64,000 nt of DNA from the NCBI GenBank assembly GCA_012934845.2, contig WNNJ02000896.1, positions 1-64,000 on the forward strand, read 5' to 3'. Below, piece by piece: positions 2,500-55,100 of the stretch (within the stretch, counting starts at the first letter, position 1; each line of letters opens with the position of its first letter). The notes beneath the pieces were generated by a model. That model saw only the letters and a list, made by a program, of their open reading frames with translations, was not told the DNA's origin and ran no database searches. This DNA is from Pomphorhynchus laevis. Its lineage: Eukaryota; Acanthocephala; Palaeacanthocephala; Echinorhynchida; Pomphorhynchidae. A program made the translations under genes and the position numbers.

Positions 2500-5400
2500 T
2501 TCTCTTATTTAATATTTGGAGGGTATCTAAAAATTATCTTGGATTATGTTTTGCGTAAAATTTTAATCAAAAAAGTTTTATCAAAATTTTAAAATTTTAT
2601 TTTTGTACAAAAAATTATCTTTAATTTATATACATATAAATTATATATTTATTTGTTTTTTATATTCGTTATAGTAATAACTATAGCGGTCAAGTATTGT
2701 TTTTAAGCGTAGTACAACACCAAAACAGAAAATAATGTACTTTATATGTGATATGCGTAGAACGATTTTGAGACGATGTGAATGTCACCTAGTAGATGTT
2801 AGCGCTGTAAAAGTATTTGCTCAGTACAATTCTAATTATATTAAAGAAAACTAGTCAAATATCAGGAACTAATAGAAAACCAGGACGCTATTTATATTAT
2901 CACAGCAATATTCGCTGTTGTGAAATGCCCAGGAGAATACAGGACACAAATAAATATATTTATTTATTTAAATAAATATATTAAATAAATATATTTATTA
3001 AATATTTAAATACAATATTTAATATATTTATTAACTATTAAAATACAAAATATTATTAAATTATTTATTAGATAGAGCAATATGATTGCAAGATAATATT
3101 ACATTATCAATGTATAACAATATTATAAATTGATATAATATATATACTTTAAAGCTAATAAAAGAATTTAGCATGTTTTCAATAAAGGAAGATAGTACGC
3201 TTAAAATGAATTATCCATATGTTCATGTTGACCCTATTTTAACGGGTGACGTACATCATAGTGTAATATATATAATACAAATATGTTTACATTTGTAAAA
3301 ACTTAATCAAATGTTGTTTGTTTATAAACGTAATTTTTATTAATCAAAATAAATATTCAAATTAAAAATTGTTATCACTTAATATTCAAAATGGCGCTAA
3401 TATTGTTTAACCGAAACTGAACATTAAATCTTTGTACTGTTTGAAACTATGCAAAGTAATATCTCGATACCCAGTTGTAAGCGATGGTTTAACGTATAAT
3501 TTATAAAATGAATCTTCACACTACAATTATGTTTTAAATGCTTATTTAAGAAGATGTAAACAACCTTCTTTTTACTCAAAATACTTAATAAATAAGATAA
3601 TTAATAACAGAATTGCTATCCTACAGAATTTATATTCAGAAAATAAAACATTCAAAGGAGTGGAATTCGATTTATATTTTGACCGGTACTCCCGACATTG
3701 TCAGGCACATCAACAAAACGTTTGGTTGAAGTATCTGACGATGACGGTTGTTCTATGGGAATTCTTCTATATACAACTTTCTGAAATTGTACGAAAAAGG
3801 AACCATTACATCATGTTTTACATGACAAAAAATTGCATGCTTCATAACTAGTTACAAACTTAAAGATTAAAGAATAAGATATCACGTGATTTAGATTAAG
3901 TGATTTTGTTAGTAAATTGTAACACATTTTCTTACAGTATTCTTTAAATTGCAAAAATTTTAAAAATTAATTATATAAAATGTAAAATAAATAATTATTA
4001 AATAAGTTAGTGCACAGAATGAGTGTTTAAGTAATATCACAGAATATCTGTTTAACAAGTAATCATTATATCAATATAATGATTACTCATTACTTATAAT
4101 GAGTAATCATTATAAGTAATTTATAATTAACTTATAATTACTTATAATATATAAATAATTATTATTTTTGATACATGTAAATATATCGAAAATATATTTT
4201 TGAAATATTTTTGTATATAAATATAATATAGGTATATTATTTTTGATGTGGACAAGCATATAATTTTTAAAAAATACCAAATCTATTAATACATGCAATA
4301 TAAATTAGTAAAATTTCATTTTTAGTGCGAATGGAAATACTTAAAATATTTTAAAATTTTAAAAGCTTGAGTATTAAATTTAAAGCGATGTTTCATCTCA
4401 TATTTCATTAAATAATTATATGTACTCCATTATTATTTTAGTTACTGGAAAATATATTCATGAAAAACTAACTTTGGAACTTTGATCAGGAAAAAAATTA
4501 TTTAAATAAAATCGATCGAGGAACTTAATCCAATTTAAATTGGTTTAAAAAATTTATGTTAGAGAATTTACATAAAATATAATCATGTAAAAAGCATAGA
4601 ATTATATTTCCATATATCTATCAAAAGAAAAAATAGTGGTTTGTAGATTCGTTCTTTGCATATATGATTAAATTATATATTCTAAAACTTTGTAAAATAA
4701 ATTTTTAATAATTTTCTTTAAATCAATTTTCCGCAATCTGCCAATCAATTTATCTAGCTTCGTTATTTGTAGAATCACAATGTATTTTAATTTACCACTT
4801 TTTCTGTAGCTTTCTCAAATAATAGCGTGAAGGATCGAATATCATTAATAGAATCACAACTAATAAGGCAAGTCTTTTGATTTAACAAGACCTTCTCGAA
4901 TAAGTATTTAATGATTTGGAAAATTCGTTTGATAAAATAATGTTTTAAAATTATTCAAGGTTTTAGATAATTTTGGTACAGACTAATAAATGATTATCAT
5001 CCATGTTGATAGTATTGAGTTTTTATTAAAATTTAATAATCTCATTGAGTTTAAAAACATTAGAATTTTCGTAAACAAATAGCATACATGATCAGTGGAC
5101 ATACCAACATATTGAGAATTTAATATATATATTTATTAAAAATAAAATGTATTTTTGGAATACAGTTGGAATTTTCTGGAAGCGGTTTATCAAAAGGTGT
5201 GTTTGTCACTTCTAAATACAAGATCTTGGTATTAATAGCAAGAATAAAAATTATGAATACATTTCATTTCATTTTTTATATAATATTAAATGAATGCATT
5301 TAATATTATATATTATAATACAAAATATATTTTAAATTACAAAATAAAAATTGTAATATAAAATTTATAATTTAAGTTTCAATTACTCCTGACAAATGAA

Positions 5401-11300: not shown

Positions 11301-14300
11301 ATTTAGGACAGAAGACCGGATTTCTGTTAGGTATAAAAATTCTACAACTAATGTTGATCCCGGCCACATCGGACGGGGAGGCTAGTAGCATTGTGACGGC
11401 CACTCCTCTTCTCTGTTCGGCTGTCAAAAGCTGACAGACCCAAGAAGAAAGTAGAGCGACAGATTTGGAGGTGCCCTGGAGGGGCCTACAGGAGTTAGAG
11501 ATATCTGTGACAAATAGGTCCCTACTCCTGAAGTTCCCTCAAGGCGGGATAGGTTGAGGTGATTGAGTGGATCCATAATTATGTAGGGATAGCGACTCCT
11601 CTAAAACTATATCAAGACCTTTACTGCCAATCCAACCCAATGCTCTATCCTTCCAACAGACAAATTCCTTCTTCTAGAATATCTTCCAAAAGGAAGACTG
11701 AGCTGGATTAAGGGAAGCAATTTAATTTTCAAATCGTGCAAATTTTGCTACTTCTATTTTTATATTAGAAATTCAAAATAGTGCTTTTAGTAAAAGTAGC
11801 AAAATTTAAAATAAATTGTTTAGATAAATAAAGAAAATCAAAAATAAAGTTTTTAATTTTCAATATGAACATTTAAAATTAACTTAGTTATCAAACAGAA
11901 TGAACTTTAATACAAACTTTTTTAATATCAACTTTTCAATATAGTTAACGTGTTCAAATTGTTTCTCTAATTTTCTCTAATTGCCTTTTTCAAAATAAAT
12001 AACTCTTTTAGTTTGGAAGTAGATGTGCGACAAAGATCGCTTTGTGTTTACTAAGAAAGTACGATATGAGCTCGCATGTCGTATTATCGACGATAAAGAG
12101 AATTGATGGCATTGCGATAATTTTAAATCTCATTACAGATACTGATTCGGCACTTTCGGTAAATCTTTGAATACACATTCTTGATATAAGATTTTTTAAT
12201 AGATTCTAGCATTGTCTATCATGGTTGAAGCTACTAAGAACGAATTATTAGCCAAAGAGACACGTGAGCATGGTGGAATCGTTAAAGCCTTAATTGCATT
12301 AGTCACTATCCGCGATGACGGGTACATTGAAATATTTCAATTACTAGAGAATTTAACAAAAACTCCTGTGGGACGATATGAATTTCGGCAAGCAAGTGGA
12401 ATTCCATTGCTAGTAAGATTTTAATGTGTTTCTTACTTAATACTTTTAATAAATTTTAGAGTTGTCATAATGAATTCTCAATTGCTTTTGTTGTATTATT
12501 GTTGTAATTTTTATATAATTTACATATTAATTATAATTAATATTTATAATACATAATTAATTAACGTTTATGTTACTTAAAAATTGGAAACGTAGACTAA
12601 GTTTGATTAATAATTAATTAATTAATTTTGCATGAAAATTAGTCAGAGAGCTACGTTGTAGCTCTCTTTTTATATTTTACTTTGTAGATGTTGTAAAATA
12701 TTGTGTTATGGAGCAGTAACAATACAAATCAAGTTAGTCAGCTAAAAAAATAAATTTCATAAAATGAAATTTAAATTGTTTTAATTACTGAATTATTTGT
12801 ATTTAGTAATTTATAGCATTATTTCGGAGAGAATTTGGAAACTATCAATTCATAAAATAATATTCTTTAAGCTTCAAAATTTTAAAAATGTACAAGTATT
12901 TAAATTGTGAAAACTTTTGATGTGATAATGATAATGGTGTCATATAATTATGTCTAACATTTAATGACCTTATCATGTATATATTGTTGAAGTTATATAA
13001 TAATATAATTTATATATTTATTAATAATTTTTAATTAAATTATTTTTCAAATTTATGAAAATGTAATTCTAAAAATTACTAAATTTAAGCAATTAGGTCG
13101 TTTTTAAACGAAATTAAAATTTATCTTAACTTGAATCGTATTTTTTACTCATCAATATTTTATATAATACAATACGATATAATAATATATAATACAATAT
13201 AATATATATTATATAATATATATTATAATATACTATAATACAATATATATTACATACGTACTAAGGTTTAAAAATATAAATGATTTTTATGAACATTTAA
13301 AATTAACTTAGTTATCAAACAGAATGAACTTTAATACCAAAATATTTCACATTAAATATTTTAATTATCGCTATTATTGCTATTTCGGAGCGACGTTATT
13401 CACCTGGGAAGCCGGCAAAATCCTTGTATAGAATTTTACTTATCCCAACACGTTGACTACCAGCAACGTCACCCACACCGTGTCCTCTGCAGGCGTAGTC
13501 GTGGTTTATGTAAAACAACTTAAGATGAATAAATACCGAAATCTCGACGACCAGCAATACTCGTTTGCACTTGTGACTGTGGAATCGCTGGGCGCAGTAG
13601 GGTCAGGAATGACAGCGTTCCTGCAGCAGCTGAGTAATAAATTAAAGCACAACCGGAGAACCCGCTCTTTTAACTGGATAATGCAGCGACTGAGTTTGGT
13701 GGTGCAGCTGGACAACGCCACCTGCTTCATTAAATCGACCGGTGACCCTCTAATCTCAAATTATCACTTTTGATTTTAAAAAATCAAAGTTATATGTAAA
13801 TAATGTTTATAATGATTATTATTTATTTTTTTAACGATTAAATATATTTATTACATAATAAACTTATATTTATTAAAAAATATATATTTATAGTAAATCT
13901 ACAATATAAAAAAAAACAAAATTATTAGCAAAATTCGTAAGTTATTCTGATGTTTTACAACAAAATATTTGAAATTGCTTAATTTAAGTTAAAATATAAA
14001 ATTGTAATTAATATTATTGTAATAATATAAAATAATATAATTTATTATAATATGATAATATTGTAATATAATTATAAAATACTAAATATTTATTATTTCT
14101 ACAATAAGAAAATAAATCATTTATGTAATACATTTTTTAAAGAAATTAGTTATTCTTCGATTACAAATAAACGTTAAATATTTTCATGCTATAATGTTTT
14201 TCTTGCATTTTAGGTAGCTATGCTACAGATATTTTTAACTCAGGCAAAAAGTTTGTATTGTCACATTTCATCGCTTTGCAGAACGTTATATATCTGCTGT

Positions 14301-17300
14301 AAATGCAAAAAGAATCGTTTGGCTCTAGCAAGACATGGACTACCTTTAATTTTACCCACAGTTATTCGAGCATTACCAAGAACACACGTTACTTCGGCTG
14401 TTGCTCTATTGAATAGTTGCCTAGTCGAGGTAAATTTCTTTAAAAGTCATTTTGAGGTTTATATTTGCCTTAGAACTTTGACTGGGAGGTTTATATTTGC
14501 CTTAGAACTCTGACTGCATGAATAAACTGTCCTGAATACATTAAATATGCAAAGTAAATATTAAGAAAAATTTATATATTTCGGGAACGAATAGAATTCG
14601 TTATATTTGTTAGTTATAATTCCAAAAGTTATAATATTTCGATAATTCTTGCTATCAAAATAAATTGAATAAACTGTTAGTAATTTTCCTGCAGATGGTA
14701 GCAGGAACATTGCAATATCGAAATATTGTAACTTTTGGAATAAAACTAATTTCTTCATTCTTGTAAGTTTACAAAGCTATAAAGAAGAAATACATTGATA
14801 TTTTAAATTCATTAAAAAATATATTAACATTTAGTAAGCGAACATTTACTGATAACGAGCAGTTATCTTAAGATCAGCTTGAACATTTCGAAACAGTGAA
14901 AGTTTTTGAATTTCTTATCAGTTTCATCAATTGGTTTTTAAACAGAAAATATTCAATAAATTAGTGACTTTTGTATTTTATTAAGGATGTCGTCAATTTT
15001 CATTAATGTAGTTTTATCAAAATCATTGGCAAATATCAAAATTATTATATATATAGTTTGAAAAATAAATGCAGTCTTCAGAGAGTTAGTGATTTATTCA
15101 AGAAAAAAGCTTTCGGGTAGAACCGTTCTTTGATTTACAGTTTAAAATTTTTAGTCTTATACGAAATAACACACGTTACTTTGCCTTCTGCTCTTTTGAA
15201 TATTTGCCTAGTCATTAAAGTCATTTTAAGGTTTATTGTAACCTTAAAAAATCTGACGAAAGTTTTATTTCCACAATAAAATTATCTATTATCTAGTAAA
15301 TATTTAAAAACAGTCAAGACTAAATATAATCGACTTGACAATTTTTTTGTGAAATAGTCAAAGAATCTACATGTGAAAAAAGATAAATATTATTTTAAAA
15401 CATTAAAGATATTTTGACATAAATTATTATTTCAAAATTTTATCTGAAAGAATTCCAATACAACCTTATTAATTGATACAAACAGGAAAGTGCAAGCCTG
15501 CATACTTTTTCAAACTTTACCGGGAAGCTTAAACCGGAATACCACATACGCCTAGCCCACAATGGAACGTTTCGAATTTATTTTGAATTTATTATTATTG
15601 AATTTATTTTCTAAATAAATCTCACAATTTATTTAGAAAGGATAAAATAATTAAAGCATTGTTTTTTGCGAGTTCTTTCAAATCACATGAATAGGTGGAA
15701 CACATATATAAGTGTGAATATGGGCATTACAATCCGTTACTTACTTTTGCCAATTGCTAGAATCGAGTTCTTAATGATTTAATTAATGTTATCTAAATTA
15801 AAAATTAAAAATTAATTTATTTATAAATTTCTGCAAATAGAAATAATATTGTTGGTGGAAACATTTGATATCAGGGTGTCAGCACCAAGAAAGAAATTCC
15901 ACAATGAAATTGTCGCAAATGACAAAGTCACCATTTCGAACTAGTTTGTTCTCATCAGTAGCCTGTACTCCCCACAACTGGATTGAAGTTGGGAGAAAGG
16001 CTATATGGTGATTTGAAACAACGAGAGTTCCTTGTTCCCTTGCAAAGACTGGGGTTTGCAACTGCAAGCAATCACCCGTCTGCATCAAGCGCTGGAGAAC
16101 CAAGCGCGTTGTGCAACAAGATACACACCAGTTGGCTACTGGATAATACAATGCTGCACTATGATGCACTGCTGCTATGCATCCTTATCAATAAATTTCT
16201 TCAAATAGAAATAATATTGTTCGTGGAAACATTTGATATCAGGGTGTCAGCACCACGAAAGAAATTCCACAATGAAATTGTCGCAAATGACAAAGTCACC
16301 ATTTCGAACTAGTTTGTTCTCATCAGTAGCCTGTACTCCCAACAACTAGATTGAAGTTTGCAGAAAGGCTATACTGTAACTTGAAACAACGAGAGTTTCT
16401 TGTTCTCTTGCAAAGACTGGTTTTGCGACTGCAAGTATTCACCCGTTTGCATTAAGCGCCGGAGAACCAAGCGCGTTGTGCAACAAGATACACACCAGTT
16501 GGCTACTAGATAATACAATGCTGCACTACGATGCACTGCTGCTATGCATCCTTATCAATAAATTTCTTCAAATAGAAATACTATTGTTCGTGGAAACATT
16601 TGATATCAGGGTGTCAGCACCACGAAAGAAATTCCACAATGAAATTGTCGCAAATGACAAAATTTGCGACAATTTCATTGTGGAATTTCTTTCGTGGTGC
16701 TGACACCCTGATATCAAATGTTTCCACGAACAATATTATTTCTATTTGAAGAAATTTATTGATAAGGATGCATAGCAGCAGTGCATCATAGTGCAGCATT
16801 GTATTATCCAGTAGCCAACTGGTGTGTATCTTGTTGCACAACGCGCTTGGTTCTCCAGCGCTTAATGCAGACGGGTGAATACTTGCAGTCGCAAACCCCA
16901 GTCTTTGCAAGGGAACAAGGAACTCTCGTTGTTTCAAATAACCATATAGCCTTTCTTCCAATTTCAATCCAGTTGTGGGGAGTACAGGCTACTAATGAGA
17001 ACCAACTAGTTCGAAATGGTGACTTTGTCATTTGCGACAATTTCATTGTGGAATTTCTTTCGTGGTGCTGACACCCTGATATCAAATATTTCCACGAACA
17101 ATATTATTTCTATTTGAAGAAATTTATTGATAAGGATGCATAGCAGCAGTGCATCGTAGTGCAGCATTGCATTATCCAGTAGCCAAGTGGTGTGTATCTT
17201 GTTGCACAACGCGCTTGGTTCTCCAGCTATTAATGCAGACGGGTGAATACTTGCAGTCGCAAACCCCAGTCTTTGCAAGGGAACAAGGAACTCTCGTTGT

Positions 17301-20300
17301 TTCAAATCACCATATAGCCTTTCTCCCAACTTCAATCCAGTTGTGGGGAGTACAGGCTACTGATGAGAACAAACTAGTTCGAAATGGTGACTTTGTCATT
17401 TGCGACAATTTCATTGTTTAATTTATTTATGTATAAAAGTATAATATCTACTGTAAATATTATAATTAAGTGTTATCTCGATCCTATGAGATAAATAAAT
17501 TCCAAACAATGATAATTACTAATTATCAAATATGATTAGTCAAATGAATAATATTTTTTATACAAATGAATAATAAAACCGAATGAATATTCATTCGGTT
17601 TAAATGTTCTCTTAAATGGACCTTTGTGTTATCAATAATAATCATGTCATTATTTTATGTGATTAGATGCGAGCAGGTAGAAAAATACTTTACAAGCATG
17701 TCGCAGCGAGAGCGGGGCGATCTTAGATAAACAGACATTGATCGAGCGATTGGAAACCAAATTCTTCTCTTAATCCATGCCAAAATGTAGGAATATTGCT
17801 CTCTTGAGCAATGCGTATTGATCGCAGCTAGTGATTTCATAAAAAGCATCATATCATCGCACATACTACCCGACATGGAGAAGATGAAAAGCAGGAATCT
17901 GCTTCGTTCAAGACTCACAATGCGTTCACTGTATTTCCCCTTGTTTCTTGATTCATTGCTGGCCAACACGGATGCCGAGACACCACAAACATACGATTAA
18001 GCGTGCATATTAATCGATTATAATTGCGCCTGCTCAAATCGATTGCTCTGAAGTATGGAACATGCGGTTTCCAAACTTGCACCTCTCTTGCGTGTAGTCG
18101 TCCGAGCCTCGAAATCAATTCATCTTGGATATCAGTGAGCTCAGGTTCAACCCAACCCCGTTACAAATGGTTGTAAGCTGCAGCGTGAGCAACCCACGCA
18201 CGATATTGTGCCGGATTAAAGACAAAACCTCCTCGCTTGCAGACAAGGGCGTGGCTGATATAAACGCTATCTCCACAAGCTCAGACGCTCTTACTCAAAT
18301 CGGTGGGTGTCTAACCGTACTGGGCGCAGAGTGCATCCATAAATTCATCGCGACTTAGGTGGAAGCGTTCCCTCCTTACTTGTACGGCACTTAATCACGA
18401 GGAGGCACCATGGAGGCATGATAGATGATTTGGGTTATGACCAGACCAAGTCTAGCCACGCTTGGCTGCTATCTATCGATACGCAATCGGCGTCGTTCTG
18501 AATAAACCAGATTCATGTCGCGGTCTTGTAGTAAGCCCAAAGTGTTTCCAGTTTCTCCGATTTCACATGTATCGCATATGTTTGAAGAACACCCGAATTC
18601 CAGATGCGCAGAGAACTTTGGATCACATATGCCAAGTCCACCATCGCTTATAGAAGAAATTAAGATAGTCACCAGTTTTCGTTCACTCTTCGTCCGTTGA
18701 CTGTGGAACGACTTTTTCGTTGATAGATGTGTACAGATCGTTTGTGTACGACGAGCTGCATTCGACTGAGCGCATAAAATACGTCTACTTGAACTGCACC
18801 GAACGAACCAATCCGGTGTAAGCCACAAGTGGATGTATCTATTTGACGCGTGTAAAACGATCAATAAGATTAAGTATCTTAATATTAACGATCAATAAGT
18901 AAATTAAAAAAATTAATTTATTAATAATAACAAATGAATTAACGTTATATAAATAAATTAATGTTATAATTAATAGATTATGACATTAAATAAATAATAA
19001 ATTAATTAATGTTATCTAATTATTTATTATTAATAAATAATTATTAATTATAAATATATTATTATTAATTAATTATTATTTATGTTAATAAATAATAATT
19101 TAATTAATTATTTAATTAATTATTTAATTAATAATTAATTATTTATTATTATTAATTATTATTATGTTTTGATTATTATTAATTAATTATTATTTATGTT
19201 ATAAAAGTATAATATCTACCCATGATAGTTTATATCACAATTTGATATTTCAACGTGATATTTTTCATCTAAATTTTAACATCCGAAAATAATATTTTTA
19301 TCATTTTAAGGAAGTGTTTCGAGTGAGATTCAGAGTTAGTAGACTTGCAAAGGATCTGATTAGTTTTTTTCAAACGGAAAGCATCCCATTAATCAGTTTC
19401 AGTATTCATGCTCTCTACAATATGTCAGCAGATCATTTATCTTTGGACGAAATTGGACATGGATTGTCCAGTATATTTGAAAATCTATCGAAAATAAAAG
19501 ATCACTTTATACTGGAATCACTTACTGGCATTGTTGCTCGACTATCCTTACGTAGTAAACAATGGGATAAGCATCAAGACCAAATGATTGACGTTCTGAC
19601 AAAATTGCTTAAAAAGGAAGATATGGGTGATATTAAGATCGACATGTTTAAAACACTCGCCGATTTATCTAGCAAAAACAAGACTTTAATAAAACTCCAC
19701 GAACGAGGACTTGTCGATATCGCGATTAATCATTTAACATATGATGATCCAGTAGTTGCTGAATATGCTATTATAACAGTCGGCAATGCCACTAATTTAC
19801 CAAGCACTGCAAAGTAGGTATTTTGTTAATTGACAAATTTGAAACAACAAACATTTTCAATACAAATCACCACGACATTTTAAATTTTATTTCAATGAAT
19901 TTTGAGCTATACGCGTTTTTGCATGTACTTTAGGTATATTAAAATAAATTTATCTATTAAATAATTATCTCACTTTTCATAAAATCTTTTAATCTTTTAA
20001 ATGACTAAAAAGGCTTCGGCCGAAACGTCAATAAATCTGTATTGCTAATTGTTGAGTCAATTTGATTACTTCTAAAGTTATATATGGCTGAATTCGTTAA
20101 TTTAGAATCCTCAGCAGCGGTCTCAAAATCAATTATATATATTGATATTTGTAGTAACAAAAAACAGAAGAAAAACTCGATTTATTATTTATTTGACATT
20201 TCGGCTATTCGCCTTGAATAGCCGAAAGCTATTTGCTTTCGGAAATCCCGAAAGCTATTTGCTAATAACAAATTACATTTTTCGTTTGCTCAATTTGAAA

Positions 20301-29400: not shown

Positions 29401-32400
29401 TTTAGTGAAAAATGCTGTCCCAAATATTGTTAACATTCATTGTGTTATTTATCTCCAGGCACTTGCCTCAAAAGCGTTGCCGAACTCTTTCAAAGAAGTT
29501 CTGGCCGCCGTAGTTCAAGTTATGAATATTATTTGTGGAAAATCGCTTAATCACAGATTTTTTAAAGCATTTTGCGAGGAAGAAGGAGCGGAATAAATAC
29601 GCTTAACAATAGGTCAGCAATCAGTCTTAAATTGAAATTCACTAAAATTTGATATTTTGTGAGTTGTTTTTGCTCTGATACAGTAATCAATTAATTGTAA
29701 AATACTGTTGTTTTTTAACTGAGAGCTGGATTTTCTCACAACTAACAAATTAACCTTCGGTAAATATAAAACCAAACAAGCTGAATAAAAGCTGAATATA
29801 ACTTTCGGAACATTGTGAGGAAACCACAATGTCCCGAAATGATAAAAAATCCGAGTCGCTGCTGTTCTATATTATAGAGTCAAAGTAATACGCGCAACAG
29901 TATTAGAGGGCGATTCAAATACAATTACAATCACATCAACATGTTAATGGAGAATCTAGCTTGGGAGATAACCGGGATAGAGTCAGTCACAACAAGCAAC
30001 CTACTTTAAAGACTGTATTTAAACATAAATATGTAATACCTGCGGGATAAGTTCATGTATCAAAATGCCTGTAAAGATTGTTACAATGTATACATAGGGC
30101 AAACGATAAAAGGTTCATCTAAAAATAATTGCTTAGCACAAATCCGAACTTAGGAAGGTGGACATTTCATCTGTCATGTTAATTATATTCCATATTAATC
30201 ACCAAGTCCGAATCAGTCTTATACAATCGATTTTGACAATACAAAGCGTTAGATCAGGAAAATAATCTTTGCTGGAAATTAAAGGACGAAGCGATGCACA
30301 TTCAATCATCACCTTTAATTATGAAAGGCAACAAAAGCAACTGGATTTTAAAATTGTCATCACATAAAATGCAATATTAAACAGCTTTAATATTATGAAC
30401 TCCCTGTAGTAATCGTGTATGAAACACAAATGTGAAGATTTAAAGTTAGTTATGTAAAATTTTGTATTAAAAGGTCATTTGCATTTAAAATAAAGTTGAT
30501 TTGTCTCTCAGTTCTCGTTAAAAACGCAAAGGCATATAATGTGATAGATAATGTTAGGCTAAATTTGGCCTATTTTCTGTAGGTTAAAAAAATTACCGAT
30601 AACACATTAAACTAAAATATTGAGCTTTTTAATTTTTTGAACAGTCTTTTGTGAGCTTTATAGTTACATTCTAAATATTAAGGAAAGTCAAATCAAAATC
30701 CGACAATTTATTGGAGGAATTCATTTGTTGGTTTCGTTATTAAAGTGTCAGTCTGTAGATGTCCTTACTGCTGTTTGTGACCTAATTTCCGAAGTTGCAA
30801 AGAACGATTACAATCTTGGCATTTTGACCGATTACAACGTATTAGGAGCAATTAGCAAGCTCATGTCTACGGTTTGTTGCAGTGGCTACTTGTTTGGTAA
30901 TTTGTAAAAATTTGATGATATAATGTTTGCGATGCGTATTTTAAATTAATAAGACGTTTTTATATTAATTTTTAAATTTGAAATAAAACAGACTTCAAAA
31001 TTAATATCAAAATGTGCACTTTTTGTTTAGAAACGAAAAATCCTCTATTTCAATGGATTTGGAACAACTATTTTTAGTAATAAAAGTTTAATTTATATCG
31101 TAAATTAAATTAAATATATTTTATTTAATTTTTAATAAAAATTTGACATTTTTAAATTCGTTTTTAAATTTGAAACAAAATAGATATAAAACTTAATATC
31201 AAAATGTGTGCTTAAAGATAAAATTTTAGTTTACAAAATATAAATCAAGTGTGAAGAACAATAGTCAACTCACAACGGATCAGAAGAGTTTTCATTGTCG
31301 GGTGCCGTGTGTTCAGGCAGTTGTTCAGAGGAGTGAAGAGGCATTAACATCCTAAGCGGACTAGTCTTCATGTAGACACGTGGAATGTCATATCGCTAGC
31401 GGGGAAGGAACCAGAATTAGTTGAGGAGATGTTCTCTTCGGTCTAGAAATAATTGGAGTGACTTCTCGTCACTATTCGAGATCTGGAACTAAACTTTTAG
31501 ATCACGTTTGAACTTGAAAAATTCGGGAGTTACCAACGGAAAGCAACGACATGCAGGTGTAGAGATACTTACAAGTCCCCGGTTGTCGATCGTGGTAAAG
31601 AGCTTAACCCAGTGAACGAAATGCTGTCGTCTTTTAGACTTTTAGTCAAAGAGGGAAATGGATAACTGTAGTGTGTGCGTATGCTCCTAACATTATCTCG
31701 GAATATGCAGCCTTCGTGGAAGATCTTCAAGCTCTGCTTGATAGTACTCTTGTTGGAGATTCCCTCGTTCTAGTGGGTAACTTCAATGCTCATGTTAGTA
31801 GCGACAGTAGCACATGGAAGGGAGTGTTGAGGAGGAACGGAGTCTCCCATCTGAATGTGAGTGGTGTTGAATTATTGCACTTTTGTTCTCGTAACAATTT
31901 GTGCGTAACCAACACTATGTTTGAAGATGAGGAGATCCATAGATGCACATGGCATCAGGATTCTCTCAGTCAAAGATCAATATTCGATTCTGTAATCGAA
32001 TCATCTGATCTGCGACTTAATGTTCTGGACGCTCGTGTGAAGAGAGGGCTAAGCTGTCAAGCGATCACCACCTTGTAGTTAGTGAATTTCGATGGCAGGA
32101 TCGGATGCTAGACAACCCTGGTGAACCTAAATGTTGTGTGAGGGCGTGCTGGGAGCGGCTAGCAGATATTTCTGTCAAAGAACGTTTATCTGGCTACATC
32201 CAGGAGGTCTTCTCTCGGTTGCCAGAAGAGGTGAAAATTGATCAGGATGGAAAATGTTTAGATCCTCGCTTGCCAAAGTAACTGTGAAAAGTTGTGGCTC
32301 GAAGGCCTTAGGTGCTTGTCGCGGAAGAAATACTCGAACTGCTTGGTGGACATTAACAGTTACAGATTTTGTCCAACAAAAGAAGCTGGCTTATAAGGCA

Positions 32401-46100: not shown

Positions 46101-49100
46101 GTTCGAAAAATTCTATCGAGAATTCTAGCTGTTGGGGCAAGGTGAGGTCTTCGCATATTGCTATGCGAAGAACTGTCGTAACAGGCCTCAAACCGAGCGC
46201 ACCGCTATTTTAATAGTTCCTGTTCATGATGCTGCAGTACCGAACTTACAGCAGGAAGCAACTAAAAGCGCCCATCATGTGTCACTTTATAATACCCATA
46301 CATCCCACAAATCCTTCACTGCTAGATCAACCGAGGCATTTAGCATCGATGCTATCACTGCTATCTTAACCAGATCATCCATCATTTGCCTGAATCTTTT
46401 CTATTATCAATCATTGCACTCAAAGGTCGACTCGATTCTCTACGCACTTCACGAATCAAATCTCGATATCCTCTGCCTAGCAACTGAAACCTAGCAAGGA
46501 AATGATGATATTGCCATTCGTCGTCTATGACTTAATGGTTACTCTGTTACCTATTTTCCTCGACCTCTTCGTAACTCCAGCCACGAAACTTTAGTTCGTC
46601 AAGGTAATTTAATCATTCTAACCAAGTTTACCTTCACTGTTACTGCTATTAGCTCATCCTGTCTTTCACTCACCACTTTTGAACTACTTGATTTACAGCC
46701 CAGGATCCTCGTCACCATCATCCATATTCTTTGAAGAGCGTGACCCAGGAATATCTGACCACAACATCGTCTCAATTAGAATTAATCTAGACCATGTAGA
46801 CAAATCTCATAGGGTAGCCACTTTTTGAACATGGTCTTCTTTGTTGCTTGTGGATTTCACTTCTGAACTAGCTTCTTCTACACTATATACTTCCTTGTTC
46901 CCATTTCCGCCTGATTTCCTTGCCAACCTTTACTACTTCTAAGTTTCTTTCATTGTCAATTACATTCTTCCGCTACAAAATTCCTACTATCACTAAACAC
47001 TCTGATCCTTGGTTTGACAGTGAATGTCGCTCATGCAGTCGTATTCTCCGTAGCCTATAGAGAACGTGTAAGCATTTTATTTATCGCTGCACTATCGCCC
47101 TATTTCCATCCATCCACGATCAATTGCCCAACAAAAGCCGTCATAATCGTTCGTTTCTTCAGACTAAAGCTACACTCTTTTGGAATAATCACATATCATC
47201 CGCGACTTCTGATCAGAAGCGCTGGAAAGTATTAAATCAACTCTTTCCGCGTGCATATTCTTTGTTCGTTTGCTCAATCGATCTTTCAATTTTCGCTAGT
47301 TATCTCAAATTTAAACTTTACAATGTATGTCTTACTTTTCCACATCTTGGTTACTCTTCAGTCATTGTAACATCATGCCTTCCTAAACTTTTCCACTTAT
47401 CGCCTATGTCTTCTTATTAAATTATCGTACTGAACTCTTCCTCCCCTCATGATCTTTTAACAACAACTGTCCTTAAATCTATTGCCCGCGCACTAGTATC
47501 TTTCTTCGGTAAACTATTTAACTCGTGTATTCGACTAAAGATCTTCTTTACTGCAAGGAAGGCTGGCACTAGCTGTCCGCTCATAAAATCCAAATCTCTT
47601 GACCTTGATCTCCCATCGTCTTGCCGTCCTATATCACTACATAATCCTATTTTGAAACTCTCTGAAACACTCATTTTTCACCAAGTCATACCCAACCTAA
47701 ATTCGTCAAACATTCTTCCTCAATATCAAGCCCCATACCGTAAACTCAGCTCCACTGAAACTGCTTGTCACAATGCCAATGGGTGATCTTATCTTGGCTC
47801 GCGATCAACAGTTAACTTCCCTGTTCATTTCGCTTGATTTGTCGTCGACTTTTTTACATTGTAGATCAATCTATTCTCCTTCACCTCCTTCAACATCGTT
47901 ATGGCTTCTCAACTTCTCTCTTAAATGCTTCTCGTCATATTTTATTGGCCACTCTGTCACTGTATCATTCGACAATGCAGTTAGTTCAGCGTTCGCTATA
48001 CCCCGTAGTGTACCGCAAGGTTATGTACTCAGTTCTAAATCCCACGAAATATAGTGTTCTTTGGATCCACCCTTGCCGCATGCAGATTCAACCTTATACT
48101 GCTCTCTTTTTCAATGGACATCGCCTTCCTTACTGGATTCCATTACATTTCTTGGAGTAATTATATGCTCCACTCGTTCTCATCATTTACACTAAAAAGG
48201 TTCGTTCCTGTTATCCTATTCTCTGTGACATTCGTCGCATTCAAAATAAAAAAAAACAAATTTTTCCATTTTCAACACTCTAATGGGCCCCCTCATGCCA
48301 CATCGTCTTAACAATTGCACCTCACTTTTTTCCTCAAATTCCCCATCTTGCGTTATTGCCCCTCTGTATCGATTTATTCGCAAAACAGCCCGCATAATTC
48401 TTCGACGCAGGCGTTAAAATCCCATCTATAATAAATTTATCAGCCTTCATTGACTGAATGTGCATAATCGAGTTTAATATTACTTTGATGTTTTCGCTTT
48501 TCGTTTACTTTATCATCCCCTCCGTATCTTCAACGAGAATTGCAATGTGCTGAATATTTGTCTTCCAGAGCAATTCTTTCAAACAACCAGTTTCTGCTAC
48601 ACATTCCTAGTCATCTTTACGATATAAATTTAAAGTAGTTTTAATTGATGTTAATTTAATGTTCATATCTAGATATACACCTTCTTTATCATCGATATTG
48701 GTTTTATTAAGAATAAGGCTACCTGGATAAATTTGTTCGCTTATTGAATACAAATGATTAGAGTTAAATACACATATATCATCAATATATCGAAACATAT
48801 ATTTCATATCGTTATATAATTTAGATTTATTTTTTAAATTGTTATGAACAAATTCATATTCTATAAAGCTTAAAAACAAGTTAGCTATAATTGGGCTACT
48901 ATTACCACCCATTGGAACACCTATTACTTGTCTAAATATAGATGTCCCTATCTTTAAATAATTTTGATTTATCAAAATATTAAGGATTCTATTAGTTCAA
49001 TTTTATCCATATATTTATATTTATTTGATGGTTTAATTTTTGTTAGATAGGCGTTATAATTATTATAACATATATATGTATATTTTTTCCGAATATAAGA

Positions 49101-52100: not shown

Positions 52101-55100
52101 TACAAATATTGATTTATCTTAATTTATAATTTTTATCCTTGTTCTTTATTTTTATATTAATTTATATTAATTTATCTTAATAAATATTAAGTTATATTTT
52201 TACTTATTAAACAAGTGGATTAAACAAGTGAAGAGTTTGATTTAAAGATAGTATCGTGTATATTTCAAATATTAAAATTAACAATTTTATGAGTATGAAA
52301 GAAACGCAAGTTATATATAAACGTAAGTTATATATAACAACTTTATTTTTAATAATATCTTGTTGATTTATATATTTAACTCTTTGATTTTATTTTTATA
52401 GTAACCTAGTTTAAAATATGTATCTATTTAATTATTTAAATGATTTTGAAGAAAACTAATATCATTACAAATTGTTGCAATTCTTAAAATTTCATTATTT
52501 AATGTATTATATTTTATATTATATGGTATGCATGAATGCTCATGCAAAAATATGTTTCTTGTAAATTTAAATATGTCATCTTTACGATATAAATTAATAG
52601 TAGTTTTAGTTAATGTTAATTTAATGTTCATATCTAGATATACACCTTCTTTATCATTAATATTGGTTTTGTTAAGAATAATGCTTTCTGGATAAATGTG
52701 CTCACTAATTGAATAAAAATTATTAGAATTAAATACACATATATCATCAATGTATCGAAACATATATTTCATATATTTATATTGTTTAGATTTAGTTTTT
52801 ACACAGTTATGAACAAATTCATATTCTATAAAGCTTAAAAACAAGTTAGCTATAATTGGGCTACTATTACCACCCATTGGAACACCTTTTACTTGTCTAA
52901 ATATAGATGTCCCTACTTTTAAATAATTTTGATTTATTAAAATATTTAAGGATTCTATTAATTCAATTTTATCCATATATTTATATTTACTTAATATGTA
53001 TATATTAAATTATTAAAATGATTTTGAAGAAAGACAATATCATTACATATTGTTACAATTCTTAAAATTTCATTATTTAATGTACTATATTTTATATTAT
53101 GTGGTACGCATGAATGCTTATGCAAAAATATGTTTCTTGTAAATTTAAATATGTCATCTTTACGATATAAGTTAATAGTAGTTTTAGTTAATGTTAATTT
53201 AATGTTTATATCAAGATATAAGCATTAAATAAAAGCATGTCATTGCAGTTGCTGCCACTAAGAGCAGAAAATATTAGGCCCTGTATGATGAATTGGACAG
53301 TAGGCAAGCGCAAAATACATTATACCGCCTGGCTAAAAATCGACAAAAACAGATTGAGGATATTGGTCGTTTTCATCTTATCAATGAGTACTGAAAACTC
53401 ACAAATGATAAGAAAAAGGTGTGCTAAATATTATGGTAATACCATGAGATGTTCAGCACAACTGAATTTCCTTATCCAGCGGTCTCTCTATCAATCCTGT
53501 CTCGGTTCTATTGAAGAAATCTCAATAAGGAAGAATTTACAGCCGCTCTATATAATTTATGACTAGCAAAGGCTACAGACACAGATGATATACCATCAGA
53601 ATTGTGAAAGTTGTCATGCTAGCACCGGTATAATGGCTCACAGCGTTCTGAAACAGGGTATTGCGTGAAAGACAAATGCCTCGTGACTGGACAGAGTTTG
53701 GCTGTGCCAATTTGGAAACACAAGGAGTGTCCAGCAGATTGCTTAAACTATCGCCAGATAAGGCTGTTATATCACACGATGAAGATTCTTGAGAGAGTAA
53801 TATAACAAGACTTCGACTTATTGTGGAGATTACAGTGAACCAAACTGGATTTGTAAAGGGATATGGAACGATAGACGCCATTCAGGCATTAAGCGTTGAT
53901 GCATTAACACTGCAAAAGGCTCAAGCCACTGTATATTGCCTTTCTTGACCTCGAAAAAGCGTTTGATATAGTACCCGGGAACGTTATCTGATTCGCAATA
54001 ATAGGACATAATGTGTCAGGTGAGATATTTGAGTGGTTAAAGATCCTATGCACGCACTCGGCGAGTGAAGTGACATCCGGCGCTGGACTGTCACAATCAT
54101 TCCAAAAGGAATGATTGTGACATTCATCGGGTGGGAGTACACCAAGGATCCGTTTTATCACATCATGGTCATCCTGGTCATAAATGCAATCACTAGCGAC
54201 CTACTATGGTCTGTTCCATGGACTATCCTGTACACTGATGATGTAATGGGTGTATACAAGGATAGAAACAAATTTGAGCTACAAGTCCGTGCGTGAAAAG
54301 ATCAGCTGGAAAATAATATCCTACGCCTAAATCTTAAGAAGACAGTTATGCTGATTACAAATTCCGTAGCAGATAACTTCCAGATTAATGGTATTAAAAT
54401 TAAAACGAAAGAGGACTTTCCATGCACGGGCAACACCGTAGCATCAGACGGGTCGATTTAAGTTGAGATCACTAGGAGGATCAACTGTACGTGTGCAAAA
54501 TGGCGCGCAATGACTGGCGTAATATATGATAAAAAATGCCAAATAATCTTAAATCAAAGATATACCGCATCGTCATTCGCCTAGACGCACTATTTAGAAC
54601 AGAGTGCTGCCCTGCTACAAACTAAAGCGCACTCAAATTAGCAGCAATGGAAATGCGAGTGCTGATGTGGATGGCCGGCATTACACTTCTCGATCACATA
54701 AGAAATAATAACATCAGAAAACGATTAGGAATTCAGCTGATAGAAGAAAAATTGCGGGAAGCCCGATTACAATAATTTGAACATGTCACCCGCGCAAGCA
54801 CAACCACCATCAGAAGGAGTGGGATGGACTAGTTGTATCAGGAAAACGACCCCTTAGACGTTTTAAGCAGAAATGTTTGAACACAATAAGAATGGATGTG
54901 ATGATAGTTGTGGTAACAGCAGAATGCGCGATGTACAGAGAAAAGTGGAGGCATGTGGTCAAAAAGCCAGACTCGTAACGAAACGGAACATACGCTGAAG
55001 AAAAATACGAAGATGTGGTATGCAGATAATGTGTGTTACATTAGAGACGTCTCTGGATTATTAAAAGTATTAAAAAGAATATCGTCAATCGGAAAATATT

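Follow-up and report, generated by a model that had tools for sequence, protein, structure and literature searches.

An intronic palindromic array in Pomphorhynchus laevis as a probable type III hammerhead retrozyme mobilised by Penelope-like machinery

Introduction

How does an array of ribozyme-bearing repeats come to lie as a palindrome inside an animal gene? This question is raised by a 64,000-nt stretch of contig WNNJ02000896.1 (assembly GCA_012934845.2) of the acanthocephalan Pomphorhynchus laevis, called the window below, in which the gene ODAD2 carries an insert of repeat units of about 368 bp with hammerhead ribozyme motifs. In the passages of PMC7229834 and PMC7761336 that treat them, animal retrozymes are described as carrying type I hammerheads, and Penelope-like elements (PLEs) are proposed as their movers. 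As stated in part of a review, no conserved motif in these retrozymes reveals the enzyme that spreads them (PMC7761336). Here, we report that the array is probably a non-autonomous animal retrozyme of the kind lacking long terminal repeats (non-LTR), with a type III hammerhead, mobilised by PLE machinery and with its palindromes arising from both-strand priming. Catalysis, the identity of the reverse transcriptase (RT), and priming on both DNA strands are what we infer; the fold with its covariation and the geometry of ends and palindromes are seen in the sequences themselves.

Structure of the Insert

The whole array is flanked by a 13-bp direct duplication, TTAATTTATTTAT, which delimits the insert to 15825-17417. 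The preliminary description of this locus had placed an inverted repeat array at 15841-17419, with four 84-nt motifs, two per strand, in units of about 368 bp; the inverted repeat and the motifs were found again, whereas the exact limits had to be corrected. The insert comprises four units of 367-368 bp, two on the minus strand at the left and two on the plus strand at the right, joined head to head (Table 1). The complementarity of the inverted arms was 97% for 15817-16288 with 16662-17133 and 95% for 15890-16420 with 16898-17428, and the GC content of the units was 41-43%. Whole-unit identity was 0.973 between the two outer units and 0.976 between the left outer and right inner units; these values do not bear out the idea that a single multimer was copied into both arms and left the outer units as mirror images. 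Positions within the unit are given as q, counted along window positions 16662-17029, or as r, in a unit rotated so that r1 = q184.

Table 1. Coordinates of the insert, its ribozyme motifs and the matched exon of the host gene in the window.
Feature	Position	Strand	Remark or basis
Left target-site duplication copy, TTAATTTATTTAT	15812..15824	.	13 bp
Right target-site duplication copy, 13 bp	17418..17430	.	
Left arm (about 2.3 units), ribozyme read from the minus strand	15825..16661	-	
Right arm (about 2 units), ribozyme read from the plus strand	16662..17417	+	
Head-to-head arm junction, symmetric, 6-nt loop GACAAA	16650..16667	.	
Type III hammerhead, intact, cleavage predicted after A16004	15928..16011	-	fold, descriptor
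Hammerhead, core intact, stem III weakened, predicted cut after A16372	16295..16380	-	
Hammerhead damaged in the core (CTAATGA) and by loss of one stem III pair	16939..17022	+	
Type III hammerhead, intact, in ODAD2 sense, cleavage predicted after A17314	17307..17390	+	fold, descriptor
Open stretch with ODAD2 exon, host gene of the insert	30641..30907	+	ODAD2/ARMC4 chain match

Hammerhead Fold and Covariation

The intact motif has three stems round CUGANGA, GAAA, and NUH elements and was assigned to type III because its open stem is stem III. Stem III is 7 bp long, stem I has 6 bp and an upper hairpin, and stem II has 4 bp; the core consists of CTGATGA, GAAA, and an AUA triplet, and both a stem I internal loop and a 6-nt loop II are present. 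The two intact copies are identical in sequence, with a folding energy of -28.5 kcal/mol (z -3.48) that was equalled by none of 200 shuffles. A strict type III descriptor, applied to both strands of the 64 kb, matched exactly these two motifs and gave zero matches on 60 first-order Markov windows. The hammerhead consensus proposed earlier at both places was thus confirmed in its stems, core, and triplet by fold and descriptor, and self-cleavage of the motif is predicted. In the inner minus-strand copy, stem III has one mismatch and two wobbles, and the motif folds best into a structure other than a hammerhead. A minus-strand transcript cut after A16372 and A16004 could in principle yield the 368-nt monomer suggested earlier for the left arm, with the inner copy weakened; the plus arm could not do so if, as hammerhead biochemistry predicts, its CTAATGA core is inactive. 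Rfam matches to microRNA, small nucleolar RNA, and small RNA families in the region were all under the cut-offs, lay mostly on the palindrome hairpin, and were rejected.

Variation among dispersed copies was then compared with the predicted stems. The 38 regions and the window together contain 89 ribozyme-bearing units, 59 of them distinct. The alignment comprised 52 of the distinct units, each 92 nt long, and omitted the seven of other lengths. Two subfamilies, A and B, differ by one double change per stem: A-U to G-C in stem III (18/52 aligned units), C-G to U-A in stem I (17/52), and A-U to G-C in stem II (17/52). A fourth pair, in stem III, was changed on both sides in 2/52 units. Double changes occupied 54 cells, compared with a mean of 20.3 after shuffling (0/500 shuffles as high); these cells count sequences and so reflect few evolutionary events, yet they are spread over all three stems. 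The covariation score also exceeded that of the shuffles (0/500), whereas the count of doubly changed pairs (4) did not. Paired cells amounted to 95.1%, compared with 33-42% when the partner strand was slid by 1-3 positions. These compensatory changes in three stems support the hammerhead fold. A ribozyme variant with the loop TCAATTA occurred in C6, C254, C440, C645, and C1175, suggesting a further subfamily that is partly sampled (L067).

Dispersed Copies in the Genome

The ribozyme core pattern matched 201 times in the 249 Mb of the genome and its reversed form did not match; among the matches listed (about half of the 201), at least one (C1164:8897) looks unrelated. The search for further 368-bp units proposed in the preliminary description yielded dispersed copies, with at least 166 and at least 175 matches genome-wide for two unit queries. 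Units in the family were 367-369 nt long. The mean identity of 65 full units, with the subfamilies mixed, was 97.4% within loci and 92.2% between loci. With the C536 unit of subfamily B as query, the C1075 and C536 units showed 100% identity, which marks subfamily B as young. No open frame was common to all 65 full units (the shortest longest stretch was 19-42 aa in the six frames); one antisense frame had a median of 99 aa, and Pfam gave no match on a unit reading frame. A coding unit was rejected on the grounds that no frame is open throughout the 65 units.

L011 (C2113) and L012 (C2517) contain the same insert and flanks and differ by one unit, suggesting a segmental duplication or two haplotypes. 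Arrays of about nine units each were found in L022 and C836, and in L030 (C1715:29700-35900) every third unit shares ribozyme-region variants, a higher-order repeat as in satellites. Such arrays could belong to an ordinary satellite that spread by unequal crossing over and chance rearrangement and kept a relic ribozyme. This explanation is very improbable given the dispersed short copies, the duplications flanking the inserts, the fixed 3' ends, the uniform orientation of the palindromes, and the compensatory changes in three stems; long or higher-order arrays probably grew after insertion. Of the two earlier alternatives, a retrozyme-like or a satellite RNA element, the former is supported by fold, covariation, and genome-wide copies, and satellite is the less apt term.

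Ends and Target-Site Duplications

We mapped 60 loci: 42 with sequence (the 38 regions, the window, and L067-L069) and 18 from coordinates, drawn from among the matches listed of 155. After L012, a copy of the L011 site, had been dropped, 86 arms of at least 80 nt were available. Their 3' ends clustered at two sites about 46 nt apart, with 35/86 at q48-63 and 30/86 at q93-106 (65/86 together); ends fixed by a duplication lay at about q49-56 or q93-102. The outer 3' end of the left arm of the window, at 15825, corresponds to q96 and hence to the second site, and its inner end is the junction. Relative to the ribozyme core, which starts at q331 in subfamily A and q332 in subfamily B, the two clusters lie at +89 to +100 (35) and +134 to +142 (30). 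No A-tail or simple-repeat tail was common to the listed 3' ends.

The ribozyme is predicted to cut just before r103 in subfamily A or r104 in subfamily B. Nine of the 80 resolved 5' ends lay within 2 nt of the predicted cut (r102-106), an excess with P about 3e-6 (all 86 arms, uniform model), and 12 lay within r100-110. The excess at this position suggests that self-cleaved sense RNA served as template; the idea that every 5' end coincides with the cut was rejected at 9/80. Two same-strand arrays 245 bp apart, C3215:2963-3517 and 3763-4616, both begin at the predicted cut. A second, smaller excess of 5' ends (7/80) was observed at r168-173 (q351-356 of subfamily B), at the boundary of stem II and GAAA, in L013, L023, L031, L038, L042, L044, and others; it may perhaps mark the point at which the folded ribozyme halts the RT.

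Direct duplications of 10-16 nt surround the insert in 16/40 testable loci, compared with 1.2% of 1560 mismatched flank pairs. Eleven of these 16 loci are palindromes (11/17 such palindromes tested). Dispersed copies, these duplications, and the fixed 3' ends together indicate that the family spreads by retrotransposition.

Palindromes

Palindromes with two facing arms of at least 80 nt occur at 25 loci (without L012), and all 25 have the minus/plus order with 5' ends inward. A 27-nt piece in the interior of L032 makes one step of the opposite orientation kind. Because the duplications bound whole palindromes, these look like single insertion events. Both outer ends fell at a 3' end site in 13 palindromes, and in 12 of the 13 there was one end at each site (P 0.0016 if ends are independent); in L043, both were at site 1. 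Inverted arms between direct duplications are also what a DNA transposon (foldback element or miniature inverted-repeat transposable element) would leave, with the hammerhead lying by chance in its terminal inverted repeats, but many copies have a single arm with one fixed end, the duplications range from 10 to 16 in length, and the palindrome ends are usually unlike, so that a DNA transposon is the least credible of the explanations considered here.

At the junctions, the arms overlap by 1-7 nt, abut, or are separated by short fillers. When both 5' ends were resolved (n = 21), the junction was symmetric within 10 nt in 4 cases (C2844, L009, L032, and the window) and asymmetric in 17. The same retrozyme could have been moved by the same PLE machinery while its palindromes formed by snap-back self-priming of a single complementary DNA (cDNA). 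The four symmetric junctions fit this explanation, and for rotifer Penelope elements self-priming is favoured in the part of the report concerned, there on an antisense template (PMC3846280). In our data, the 17 asymmetric junctions with their overlaps and fillers, the unlike outer ends in 12/13 palindromes, which would not be expected had one arm been copied from its partner, and the surplus of 5' ends where the sense RNA is predicted to be cut, which points to a sense template, make snap-back unlikely. Left and right arms were each other's closest match among loci in 8/17 cases (L011 and its copy L012 both counted); the notion that palindrome arms are always closest kin was therefore rejected.

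End Geometry of Penelope-Like Relatives

GIY-YIG coding stretches gave 75 matches in the genome, and near those of L050, L052, and L054-L057 a hammerhead-like motif was seen by sequence (CTGANGA, short stem II, GAAA), features that the minimal hammerheads of PLEs also have. Ends of PLE copies were collected with 361-nt queries over two such motifs, the query's own row being dropped each time, and are given relative to the core of the hammerhead-like motif. In family 1 (40 rows), 31 ends lay at +126 to +140, 3 at +86 to +101, and 6 at +147 to +169; in family 2 (44 rows, some of them duplicates of one another), 30 lay at +88 to +94, 9 at +78 to +84, and 5 elsewhere. Two inverted PLE pairs had one end of each kind, at +128 and +86 in C210 (family 1 query) and at +90 and +140 in C2221, whose arms are 627 nt apart. 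The geometry of PLE ends, but not the sequence of PLEs, seems to be preserved in the 368-bp unit. The preliminary description had listed PLEs as hammerhead carriers; it had not named them as the means of mobilisation, which is now the stronger link.

A retrozyme mobilised by a long interspersed element (LINE) or another RT, with palindromes formed by twin priming, has in its favour that LINEs, too, are known to leave inverted copies and duplications that vary. In addition, an open stretch of the window at 31638-32078 (+) resembles a LINE endonuclease by eye, with no Pfam match on 31671-32078. The two fixed internal 3' end sites, the lack of a common tail, and the agreement of the 3' end offsets with those of PLE relatives argue against it; moreover, the palindrome arms overlap on the same part of the template, which the arms of classical twin priming do not. 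We therefore rate this explanation as improbable, somewhat more so than snap-back within the PLE framework.

Other PLE-related sequences were also observed. RT fragments at 48607-48975 (-) and 52428-52976 (-) have at least 150 near-identical genome copies and recur in L048 and L061. L048 has a GIY-YIG stretch upstream of the RT part, a permuted domain order that we take to be that of Naiad-type PLEs. In L049 (C2432:22469-25627), a hammerhead-like motif lies just upstream of a GIY-YIG stretch, which by eye is presumably the host repair gene SLX1.

Proposed Mechanism and Opposing Evidence

Parts of two studies describe PLE features that match this pattern. The lizard PLE protein in vitro cuts and extends both DNA strands, with RT starting at two internal sites, which account for the genomic tail of PLEs (PMC11167929). 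In a rotifer, PLEs have head-to-head pLTRs, optionally with a 31-bp tail on one of them, between duplications of 8-10 bp, and the pLTRs alone are enough to carry a host gene in trans (PMC3846280). For the retrozyme, multimeric RNA would be transcribed and would then cut itself. A PLE protein would recognise this RNA, and RT, primed by cut target DNA, would begin within it at either of two places, lying about 90 and about 135 nt downstream of the ribozyme core start. Both strands of the staggered cut would be extended, typically one from each start site. The two cDNAs would run inward to the template 5' ends, sometimes the ribozyme cleavage site; their joining at these points would produce a head-to-head palindrome flanked by target-site duplications. 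We lean, by a little more than an even chance, towards the stronger statement that the palindrome is a frozen record of Penelope-type both-strand target priming at two fixed sites of ribozyme-cleaved sense RNA, the type III retrozyme imitating the hammerhead-to-start spacing of PLEs although its ribozyme is of a different type and no sequence is shared.

Several findings weigh against mobilisation of a type III retrozyme in this way. An Rfam covariance match, on which the preliminary description had let its ribozyme claim depend, was found at neither intact motif, so that, taken literally, the claim failed its own test: the Rfam hammerhead models gave no match over the window at gathering score, and again none when the region and a 96-base stretch were scanned at E<=10. 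RF00008 run on the genome (68/56174 candidates scored) gave 22 weak matches, with 0 at mapped repeat copies. We read the missing match as a limit of the 54-position RF00008 model because the covariation between subfamilies independently supports the fold. As for the ends, 21/86 3' ends lie at neither site, with at least C1880 and L046 truncated by the contig end, and the outer 3' end of the right arm of the window, 17417, is at q20, outside both sites. Most 5' ends (71/80) lie away from the cleavage site, and among the nine at the cut, two belong to the neighbouring C3215 arrays and two are the arms of L009. No duplication of at least 10 nt was found at 24/40 loci, and 3 of the 16 duplications (L011, L019, and L032) are simple AT repeats.

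The palindromes themselves offer further opposing evidence. Twelve of the 25 (C1880, C2984, C769, L009, L020, L023, L027, L031, L034, L046, L067, and the window) fall outside the one-of-each count, with at least one end elsewhere or truncated by the contig end. The symmetric junction of the window palindrome could have arisen by snap-back. The unit and 20 GIY-YIG or RT loci have only 11-13-mers in common, and shared sequence between the unit and PLE RNA was rejected on this basis. In the sections of PMC11167929 that bear on this point, lizard PLE RT start sites are equal on both DNA strands in vitro, and insertion is unaffected by ribozyme mutants; the same source gives zero RNA-seq reads beginning or ending at the ribozyme cut. 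The one-of-each pattern exceeds what the lizard reaction in vitro predicts and would need a coupling of the two start sites. In the rotifer, no cross-mobilisation between PLE types was observed, in the part of the report concerned (PMC3846280).

Host Gene and Neighbouring Features

The exon at 30641-30907 matched ODAD2/ARMC4 chains of axoneme structures (E 8e-17, about residues 865-937), which bears out the earlier placement of the insert within ODAD2, a plus-strand gene, and the sense orientation of the copy ending at 17390. Cutting of ODAD2 pre-mRNA through this one intact sense copy is possible, a role unsupported by the present evidence. The long inverted arms could also pair within one transcript, in competition with the ribozyme fold. 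The open reading frame at 19314 had no Pfam match and no homologue at E<=0.001, and the PDB gave only a designed armadillo protein for it; the one at 12203 had no PDB match at E<=1. The ribozyme pattern had 0 matches in viral contigs.

Comparison with Known Systems

Extended type III hammerheads occur in toad and termite hepatitis delta virus-like RNAs and in dipteran genomes. As far as part of PMC7936874 describes them, these resemble the present motif in that stem I is short at its base and bears an internal loop and an additional hairpin, and are likewise found in animals; their stem II has 6 bp, compared with 4 bp here, and the termite genomic type III motifs are isolated and not in repeats, unlike those of P. 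laevis. Plant LTR retrozymes, in the account consulted in part, resemble the present family in being non-autonomous and non-coding with a type III hammerhead, but have about 600-1000 bp from one ribozyme to the next, with 4-bp duplications and LTR signals, compared with 368 bp and 10-16 bp here (PMC7229834). Our results place a type III hammerhead in a young, dispersed animal retroelement, for which no precedent was found among the open-access papers searched.

Animal non-LTR retrozymes are closer in organisation: in the relevant parts of PMC7229834 and PMC7761336, they consist of tandem 170-400 bp units with one hammerhead each, and have low GC, duplications of more than 4 bp, and PLEs alongside. 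The present unit falls within the bounds set for retrozymes (about 150-450 bp in tandem, one hammerhead, GC below 50%, duplications of more than 4 bp). Their hammerhead is of type I, compared with type III here, and fixed 3' end sites and one-of-each palindromes are absent from these parts of their descriptions (PMC7229834, PMC7761336). The repeat would work like an animal retrozyme, but with stem III as the open stem its hammerhead is not of type I, so that it can be no more than a variant of the family described so far.

In common with PLEs, as portrayed in portions of PMC11167929 and PMC3846280, the family has a hammerhead and two internal RT start sites, which account for a tail in some copies; its inverted repeats face head to head, one of them carrying the tail, and lie in AT-rich targets between duplications of some 10 bp. 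It differs in that the 368-bp unit lacks an RT or GIY-YIG endonuclease frame and recognisable sequence in common with the 20 GIY-YIG/RT loci, and in that PLE hammerheads are minimal type I, compared with type III here. The rotifer study, in the part concerned, preferred antisense self-priming for Penelope palindromes and left the question open against a sense template (PMC3846280); our results favour a sense template and two cDNAs, because 5' ends occur at the ribozyme cut and the junctions are mostly asymmetric. The fixed 3' ends, the ribozyme offsets, and the one-of-each palindromes held in common with PLEs give a concrete and testable answer to the question of which enzyme spreads animal retrozymes.

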